Origin: a virus
Direction: 5' to 3' (one strand)
Length of the DNA stretch: 36,147 nt
IMG/VR virus record: IMGVR_UViG_3300044712_001188
Span: 1-36,147 of that record
The notes under the pieces were generated by a model. The model was not told the origin of the DNA and did no database searches. It saw nothing but the letters and a program-made list of their open reading frames with translations. Positions 4,739 through 25,113 of the stretch are shown one piece after another (within the stretch, counting starts at the first letter, position 1; each line of letters opens with the position of its first letter). The position numbers and the translations under genes were made by a program.

Positions 4739-5091
4739 ACACTATCGGGCCCGCGTCTGCCTGCCGTCTGGATGCTATCCCCCGGCACGGAGCAGAGCCC
4801 CATCGGGCGCGGTCCACCCCGCCCGGGCCCTTTCCCCTGCGTGCAGCAGGTCCCTGCTCACAACACGCCTGCTGCATCCGGGGATTTATCGCACGTCCCC
4901 TCCCGGCTCACAGTCCCGGGCGGAGATCATCACCCTGCCAGATGAGAGAGGAACAATGCAACGCACCGCACAGCAGAAGGACACGATACCCGGTACGAGT
5001 TCCATTCGATACTCCCCATCAGAGATAATTGTAGTCGCAATATCCTCACGCCCTCTTGAGGCAGGGGCCCTATAGGGATAGTCAGTCAGCA
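4739..5091. other. 353-nt mostly non-coding region before the terminase operon
   Basis: No convincing gene longer than 40 codons lies here. The left two-thirds are GC-rich and contain several short inverted repeats. The right end carries a perfect palindrome, CCCTATAGGG (5070-5079), whose TATA core lies about 20 bp upstream of the tRNA-like gene and may be its promoter. The position next to the small terminase gene also makes this a candidate packaging-signal region, but no cos or pac motif can be read directly. Confidence 0.5.
4956..5075 (+). CDS. Possible small ORF, 39 aa
   Basis: ATG 4956 lies 4 nt after GAGG and the frame runs to TAG at 5073. The product would contain a short hydrophobic stretch (EIIVVAIS) but no recognisable domain. 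It ends within the palindrome ahead of the tRNA-like gene. Weakly supported; it may be a chance frame in a regulatory region. Confidence 0.25.
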   Translation: MQRTAQQKDTIPGTSSIRYSPSEIIVVAISSRPLEAGAL

Positions 5092-5166
5092 ACAGGGTAG
5101 GGAAGCCAGGCCCGTCCCGGCAGGCCCATAACCTGCAGATCGGCGGTTCAAATCCGCCCCCTGTTA
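5092..5166 (+). tRNA. Initiator-type tRNA-Met(CAU)-like gene, aberrant acceptor/T stem
   Basis: The cloverleaf can be drawn: AACAGGG, T8 A9, D stem GGGA/TCCC, anticodon stem GCAGG/CCTGC with loop CCCATAA (anticodon CAT), T arm around TTCAAAT, and discriminator A. The A1-U72 pair, the GGGAAGCC D arm and the AGATCGG variable/T region match archaeal initiator tRNAs. Oddities: position 33 is C instead of U; the third anticodon pair is A-U instead of G-C; and there is one C too few between the T loop and TGTT, so only 11 of the usual 12 acceptor-plus-T pairs can form. CCA is not encoded. It may be a decayed, specialised or structural tRNA-like RNA. Its 3' end lies 3 nt before the ATG of the next gene. 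Confidence 0.7.
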
Positions 5167-5169
5167 TCT

Positions 5170-5304
5170 ATGACCCTTTGCGGAAGAATCCCGAACGACG
5201 CGGACTGCATGTACTGCCCCGACTCGTACGAGTGCGGTCTGGTGCAGGAAGAGGAGAAGCGGTTCATTGCCGAGCTCACGGAAAAGCACGGGAAGGGGAT
5301 CTGA
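5170..5304 (+). CDS. Small CxxC protein abutting the tRNA-like gene, 44 aa
   Basis: ATG 5170 follows the discriminator base of the tRNA-like gene by only 3 nt, so no ribosome site exists outside the tRNA. If the tRNA is released by 3' processing, the mRNA would be practically leaderless. The 44-aa product has four cysteines in its first 22 residues (CGRIPNDADCMYCPDSYEC), consistent with a zinc knuckle, then an acidic helix (EEEKRFIAELTEKHGKG). It is followed 3 nt later by the small terminase gene. Possible role in packaging or in regulating the late operon; not recognised. Confidence 0.6.
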   Translation: MTLCGRIPNDADCMYCPDSYECGLVQEEEKRFIAELTEKHGKGI

Positions 5305-5307
5305 GCG

Positions 5308-5754
5308 ATGGGCCGGAAGTGCAGTATTTGCGAGCACAAATCGCGACAAGAAATCGATTCCGCGCTCGTCAGTCCGGGCGCGGTATTACGCGACATAGCG
5401 AGCCAATACCGCGTTGGAAAAGACGCCCTATCGCGACACGTAAACGGGGGCCACATCGCGGAGAAGATCCAGAAGGCCCGCAACGCCCGGGAGGCGGTGG
5501 AGGCCGACAACCTCCTCTCCCGCATCGTGAAGCACCAGGGCCGGTTCGACAAACTGATCGAGCGGGTCCAGAAGACCGGGGATATCGATTGGGAGCTCAA
5601 GGTCCTGCACGGGCTCAAGGAGTACCTCGAGCTGGAAGGCAAAGCGACCGGCGCCTTCCGGGAGAAGGTCGAGCACAGCGGCAGCGTGGCCCTCGGGATC
5701 ACAACCCTCCCGGACGACGAGCTCGCAGATCTCCTGATAAAACGGAGGGGCTGA
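5308..5754 (+). CDS. terS: Terminase small subunit
   Basis: The 148-aa protein starts with a CSICEH cysteine pair and a DNA-binding helix-turn-helix (VLRDIASQYRVGKDALSRHV, about residues 28-47), then a long helical oligomerisation region and a short acidic C-terminus that would contact the large subunit. This is the usual build of terminase small subunits, which form rings that recognise the packaging site on viral DNA. The gene directly precedes the large terminase gene, as in most tailed viruses. Start: ATG at 5308, GGGAAGGGGATC upstream. Confidence 0.8.
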   Translation: MGRKCSICEHKSRQEIDSALVSPGAVLRDIASQYRVGKDALSRHVNGGHIAEKIQKARNAREAVEADNLLSRIVKHQGRFDKLIERVQKTGDIDWELKVLHGLKEYLELEGKATGAFREKVEHSGSVALGITTLPDDELADLLIKRRG

Positions 5755-24709: not shown

Positions 24710-25024
24710 TTATTCACAAGCAATGCCGTTCTTATCCCTGTCCAGCCGGTGCAGGTCACCCTTCCCCATACCCCGACAACGCTCGAAGCACTCCTGCGCC
24801 GCGCTATGGTCGGGAAAGTCGTCGCAGTTATATCGGTTCGCGGAACAGTCGCAGGGGCCGGCCATCGGGTCCGCGGCCGTGGTCCGGACAAGCGGGGCGA
24901 ACGTGGCAATTTTCGTCGGGGGCCCGCTCGGGATTTCGGTGGCCGGGACCGGATCGGGCTCGTCAGCACAGCCGGCAAGAAGGATAAAAGAGACGATCAA
25001 CACCATGGCGCCGATCTGTTTCAT
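24710..25024 (-). CDS. Secreted lipoprotein with Excalibur calcium-binding motif, 104 aa
   Basis: Residues 1-19 form a lipoprotein signal (MVLIVSFILLAGC, lipobox LAGC with the lipidated Cys near 19). A Pro/Thr spacer follows, then a Cys-rich domain (CDCSANRYNCDDF... CFERC) ending at the C-terminus in DRDKNGIACE, the Excalibur signature DxDxDGxxCE with Asn in the third acidic place. Excalibur domains (PF05901) are known mainly from bacterial surface proteins and nucleases and bind calcium in an EF-hand-like loop. The protein would be tethered outside the cell. Its ATG is only 4 nt after the 3' end of the tRNA-Leu gene, so it has no room for a promoter of its own. Confidence 0.85.
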   Translation of the reverse strand: MKQIGAMVLIVSFILLAGCADEPDPVPATEIPSGPPTKIATFAPLVRTTAADPMAGPCDCSANRYNCDDFPDHSAAQECFERCRGMGKGDLHRLDRDKNGIACE

Positions 25025-25028
25025 AAAG

Positions 25029-25113
25029 TGCGAGGGATGGGATTCGAACCCAAGAACTCCTGCGAGACTAACCCCTGAAGCTAGCGCCGTTGACCTGGCT
25101 TGGCTACCCTCGC
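25029..25113 (-). tRNA. tRNA-Leu (anticodon CAG)
   Basis: 85-nt type II tRNA on the minus strand: acceptor GCGAGGG/CCCTCGC, D arm with GCC/GGC, anticodon loop TTCAGGG (CAG), a long variable arm with CTC/GAG, T loop TTCGAAT and discriminator A; no CCA is encoded. One U-U mismatch at position 49-65 of the T stem is the only defect. It may supply CUG decoding in this GC-rich virus, or mark the attachment site, since the integrase gene is about 107 bp away on its 5' side. Its 3' end runs straight into the lipoprotein gene (CTTT then ATG). Confidence 0.92.

Follow-up and report, generated by a model that had tools for sequence, protein, structure and literature searches.

A tRNA-like element ahead of the terminase operon as a candidate processing signal for a nearly leaderless late mRNA in a presumed archaeal virus

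Why should a tRNA-like gene end three nucleotides ahead of the start codon that opens the terminase operon of a virus? We examined this question in a virus record of 36,147 bases (IMG/VR record IMGVR_UViG_3300044712_001188, positions 1 to 36,147), the whole of which is referred to below as the window. Since the record has a 127-base direct terminal repeat at its ends, the genome is probably complete, either circular or permuted. Among named viruses, the nearest is Caudoviricetes sp. vir524 (BK063669.1), which has a Methanomicrobiales host and shows identities of 59% for the terminase large subunit (TerL) and 64% for a 233-aa protein encoded upstream, and we infer that the window virus infects a Methanomicrobiales-type archaeon. 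The features of the locus are as follows.

5024-5034, plus strand: promoter-like box GATAATTGTAG, a putative promoter; its counterpart in relatives is GATAATTGACC
5053-5077, plus strand: conserved leader CTCTTGAGGCAGGGGC with a small CCC-TATA-GGG hairpin
5091-5166, plus strand: tRNA-Met(CAT)-like element, the proposed t-element; A73 is at 5166
5126, plus strand: C33, replacing the conserved U33
5142-5166, plus strand: T arm together with the 3' acceptor strand and the discriminator; degenerate relatives retain this portion and 5091-5097
5167-5169, plus strand: linker TCT; the proposed tRNase Z cut would fall between 5166 and 5167
5170-5304, plus strand: 44-aa CxxC open reading frame (ORF), p44, first gene of the terminase operon
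5308-5754, plus strand: TerS-like ORF of 148 aa, similar in contigs L224 and L002
5755-7163, plus strand: TerL, with a putative start

The junction in the window and in relatives with full tRNAs

A tRNA with the anticodon CAT was placed at 5091 to 5166 (plus strand) by both ARAGORN and Rfam, the latter with a score of 51.5 bits (gathering threshold, 29); the start at 5092 given in the initial annotation was thus wrong by one base. The rest of its description of the junction agreed with the two programs and the ORFs, namely, the tRNA 3' end (A73, 5166), TCT, and the ATG at 5170 of the 44-aa protein; the TerS-like ORF and TerL come next. This ATG has no other in-frame start back to the upstream stop and no Shine-Dalgarno (SD) match of 4 nt within positions -4 to -18, as expected from the earlier claim that no ribosome site fits outside the tRNA, although such a match precedes many of the virus's other genes. 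The acceptor stem and T arm sit directly upstream of the ORF start, the arrangement required of a t-element. An encoded CCA after the discriminator, an antideterminant of tRNase Z, is absent from the window element, where TCT follows, and also from its relatives (TTCC, TCC, TTT, CTCA, TTCA, and ATCAA).

Further contigs were sought by the D-arm pattern of the window tRNA, and the same junction, for which the initial annotation had suggested looking in related viral genomes, turned up there: a similar tRNA-Met lies 3 to 4 nt ahead of an ATG in four other viral contigs (L041, L042, L019, and L044, with the linkers TCC, TTT, TTCC, and TTCC as a group). In the fetched loci, an ATG-led ORF (≥40 aa) began first at a gap of 3 to 5 nt for only 6 (0.8%) of 735 other distinct viral tRNAs, which is about the chance level. 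To judge by these loci, the short gap is not a general habit of viral tRNAs, and the junction in the window appears to be more than chance. Among the matches listed, the tRNAs with CATAA and a nearby ATG were mostly from other phages, and their gaps were scattered.

Two observations of a similar kind were made elsewhere. The contigs L170 (558-635), L176 (8650-8727), and L187 (7207-7284), retrieved with another pattern, share a 93-aa ORF whose ATG follows the end of a CAT tRNA-like gene by about 2 nt. In L111 (3990-4062), L154 (6341-6413), and L121 (14202-14274), a tRNA-Met lies 2 to 3 nt ahead of an ORF of 114 to 116 aa.

The tRNA-Leu on the minus strand of the window had been cited as a recurrence of the same layout. 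At this locus (24713-25113), the tRNA-Leu(CAG) adjoins the integrase, and CTTT separates it from the ATG at 25024 of an excalibur-domain lipoprotein, a gap of 4 nt. In vir524 the tRNA-Leu adjoins the integrase too, and there, as at five other tRNA-Leu loci, no ORF starts within 40 nt downstream (0/6 relatives). The tRNA-Leu was therefore not retained as a second case; it probably serves as an integration site, with a 4-nt gap in the window that we take to be fortuitous. In related records its anticodon is CAG, GAG, or TAA, which suggests different attachment sites.

Degenerate cloverleaves and minihelices at the same site

More members were reached through the shared upstream leader (CTCTTGAGGCAGGGNC after the GATAATTGACC box) and through relatives of the small first gene. 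At the matching site of vir524, where no tRNA is annotated, a cloverleaf is present, with the acceptor GCCGCTG/CCGTGGC (one mismatch), the T arm GCCGG-TTCAACT-CCGGC, and a lengthened anticodon stem that bears a large loop; T, CTCA, and ATG follow on its 3' side. The elements of L217, L248, and L256 resemble it. That of L253/L254 has a different sequence and a fully paired acceptor (7/7), while in L242/L252 and L255 only the acceptor (7/7, one G-U), the T arm, and a short connector are found, that is, a minihelix. The acceptor and T arm are what tRNA 3' processing recognizes. The gap to the ATG is 4 nt in vir524, L217, L248, L256, and L253 and 5 nt in L242/L252 and L255. Minimum-energy folding yielded cloverleaves; in the case of L242, it yielded an acceptor/T-arm helix carrying a small side hairpin. 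ARAGORN called no tRNA at the degenerate cloverleaves and minihelices of vir524 and the further contigs, and Rfam at an E value of ≤1 found none in L217, L248, L253, L255, and L256.

The deposited start of vir524_00018 (9638) falls inside the tRNA-like element (L198, 9638-9713, BK063669.1). This start was rejected because L248 has no in-frame start at that place, and comparison with L248 and L041/L042 suggests 9713 as the true one. The 69-kb contig IMGVR_UViG_3300002220_000035 carries a pair of related late leaders, in which the element is a full tRNA-Met (L241, 6829-6909) and a minihelix (L242, 2640-2719), respectively; the pair possibly comes from two viruses or tandem proviruses.

The box-to-ATG distance, which is set by the intervening element, covers a range of 84 to 178 nt, while in the strong members the gap from element to ATG remains at 3 to 5 nt. 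The first genes are p44 in the window, MKSK in L019/L044, a CxxC protein in L255, and a small membrane protein in L041, L042, vir524, L253, and L242, four families among which no mutual similarity was detected. Since the first genes are unlike and the box-to-ATG distance varies this much, the start codon tracks the 3' end of the element. Two exceptions were found: in L243, a tRNA-like element with a lengthened anticodon stem is followed by about 16 nt containing the SD-like GGTGA, and in L005, a tRNA-Thr-like element lies 12 nt ahead of the ATG with the SD-like TGAGG between. (In L008, which is closely related to L005, the matching site is without a tRNA.) Thus, the variable long gap in relatives that was named beforehand as an argument against the proposal was not seen generally, but longer gaps do occur in these two contigs, both with SD-like sequence. 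A possible ribosome site in such gaps is what would be expected if the 3' end of the element were the 5' end of the mRNA. The junction has outlasted both the change of the downstream gene and the decay of the tRNA, which fits a processing of the tRNA 3' end that gives an almost leaderless mRNA.

Dinucleotide shuffles, with the T loop included in the score, reached the scores of the strong members in 0 to 2 of 400 cases, for forms that had been spotted by eye prior to scoring. The minihelix scores were marginal for L228 (8/400) and L224 (17/400) and not significant for L002 (37/400) and L207 (66/400), and the T-arm-like hairpins of the last two were not counted as tRNA-like. The context of the ATG in all four contigs is alike despite the weak or nonsignificant minihelix. 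The leader ranked first in eight of eight loci, among 100 to 497 ATG-led ORF starts in each. Over the acceptor and T arm of a 10-row set, in which the 5' acceptor strands of the degenerate forms were selected by complementarity, 95.8% of cells were paired and 9 of 12 pairs had changed on both sides; the paired-cell and covariation scores were reached in 0 of 500 shuffles. The viruses compared are related, so that these instances are not independent.

Decoding marks and alternative readings

The element had been described as initiator-like. Its A1:U72 pair and initiator-type D arm agree with this description, but its anticodon stem is AGG:CCT instead of the initiator G29G30G31:C39C40C41, and its loop has C33 (5126) instead of U33. 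Among the 23 archaeal initiators fetched as a yardstick, which came from Thermoplasmatota, U33 was present in 23 and GGG:CCC in 22. The three GC pairs are near universal in initiators, with G30 contacted in the archaeal 30S complex (PMC7005279), and conservation of U33 has been described for archaeal tRNAs (PMC7668247). The viral leader tRNAs lack the GGG:CCC stem, and six of seven have C33 (four Met-like, one Thr-like, and one Asp-like), compared with 20 of 894 (about 2%) other distinct viral tRNAs of the fetched loci, some of which are probably further copies from leader contigs. The retained A1:U72 pair and D arm make descent of the window tRNA from an initiator likely; its use as one is doubtful, and given C33 and the missing GGG:CCC stem, we rejected a functional initiator tRNA as its main role. 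To judge by these marks, the leader tRNAs look impaired in decoding.

We consider it probable that the element at 5091 to 5166 is a viral t-element from which a tRNase Z cut would release an almost leaderless late mRNA, in the manner of tRNA punctuation. At the level of sequence, this reading is supported by the 3- to 5-nt junction, its independence of the downstream gene, the retained acceptor stem and T arm, and C33 with the lack of the initiator stem.

Alternatively, the element could be a cis-acting tRNA mimic that stays uncut in the mRNA leader, its shape recruiting or blocking the ribosome at the AUG or protecting the 5' end. The tRNA-like fold does abut the AUG, an initiator-type tRNA is the likely ancestor of several forms, and prebound initiator tRNA is used when archaea initiate on leaderless messages (PMC3600222). 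We nevertheless regard an uncut mimic as unlikely, for a P-site mimic would need the anticodon arm, which is gone from the minihelix of L242 and from the vir524 form, while both have kept the acceptor and T arm.

That the window encodes an ordinary tRNA for translation, with the short gap a matter of compact gene packing, would accord with its full cloverleaf of 51.5 bits and with the frequency of tRNAs in viruses. It is difficult to reconcile with C33 and the missing GGG:CCC stem, with the occurrence of degenerate and minihelix forms at the matching site, and with the near-chance gaps of other viral tRNAs, and we hold it to be quite improbable.

The leader at 5053 to 5077 (CTCTTGAGGCAGGG..CCC..GGG) is conserved at the DNA level across viruses with diverged proteins and is a possible late regulator or packaging site. 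A pac- or cos-like packaging or exchange site, made up of the leader and the inverted repeats upstream of the terminase genes with the tRNA as a passenger, would account for this conservation, for the frequent location near terminase genes, and for the difference in tRNA presence between L005 and L008. Such a site predicts neither the constant spacing of 3 to 5 nt to the start codon nor the paired changes in the acceptor and T stems, and in L002 some 5 kb separate the leader from the terminase genes; we rate this explanation as very improbable. Least credible of all is a functionless short gap inherited by chance in one lineage, since the gap persisted through the change of the first gene, a twofold variation in box-to-ATG distance, and decay to different forms, even though all members are related viruses and the tRNA-Leu of the window illustrates that chance can produce a short gap.

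Candidate mechanism and its relation to known systems

In the t-element reading, a tRNA or tRNA-like cloverleaf separates the first late gene from the late promoter. Transcription would start from the upstream box, tRNase Z of the host would cut after A73 (5166/5167), and RNase P might take off the 5' leader. The late mRNA would then begin with UCU-AUG, nearly leaderless and bearing a 5' phosphate, and would be translated as a leaderless message, without an SD site. The gating of late expression by tRNA maturation, also put forward in the initial annotation, would be a speculative extension of this scheme.

Like the window element, mascRNA of MALAT1 is a degenerate cloverleaf that serves as a processing signal; it differs in forming the 3' end of a noncoding RNA and not the 5' end of an mRNA. 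In human mitochondria, the mRNAs released by tRNA punctuation lack leaders. There, RNase P and RNase Z free the mRNAs at tRNAs that lie between ORFs (PMC10941002), whereas in the window a single element, of a kind often impaired in decoding, heads one viral operon, and other genes of the virus often have an SD sequence. Plant mitochondria also set mRNA ends with tRNA-like structures, but with a protein-only RNase P (PMC10941002), while the proposal for the window is a tRNase Z cut at the start codon. Archaea also have t-elements, which in Haloferax cells are cleaved by both RNase P and tRNase Z; in Haloferax volcanii, one such tRNA-like element lies upstream of 5S rRNA, and its 3' processing by tRNase Z forms the 5S 5' end (PMC4326828). 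The window element differs in being viral, in lying 3 to 5 nt before an mRNA start codon, and in ranging from full tRNA to minihelix among relatives, and its cleavage is predicted from sequence. Counting against a leaderless message is the observation that the mRNAs of methanogens are generally leadered (PMC3600222). Within the literature searched, with most subscription papers outside its scope, no such element was reported in archaeal viruses.

For the lineage as a whole, the chances seem to us about even that these archaeal viruses have a tRNA or mini-tRNA, dead in decoding, that is dedicated to 5'-end formation as an interchangeable module, with host tRNA maturation creating leaderless late mRNAs and the series of forms, graded between full tRNA and minihelix, recording the conversion of a tRNA into an mRNA-processing signal. 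Since tRNA finders miss the degenerate forms, such elements may be widely overlooked. The proposal predicts an mRNA 5' end at one named base. If it is true, a virus would employ tRNA punctuation like that of mitochondria, its late gene expression would be tied to host tRNA maturation, leaderless mRNAs would be made in hosts whose own are mostly leadered, and the retention of worn-out tRNAs in such viruses would be explained.
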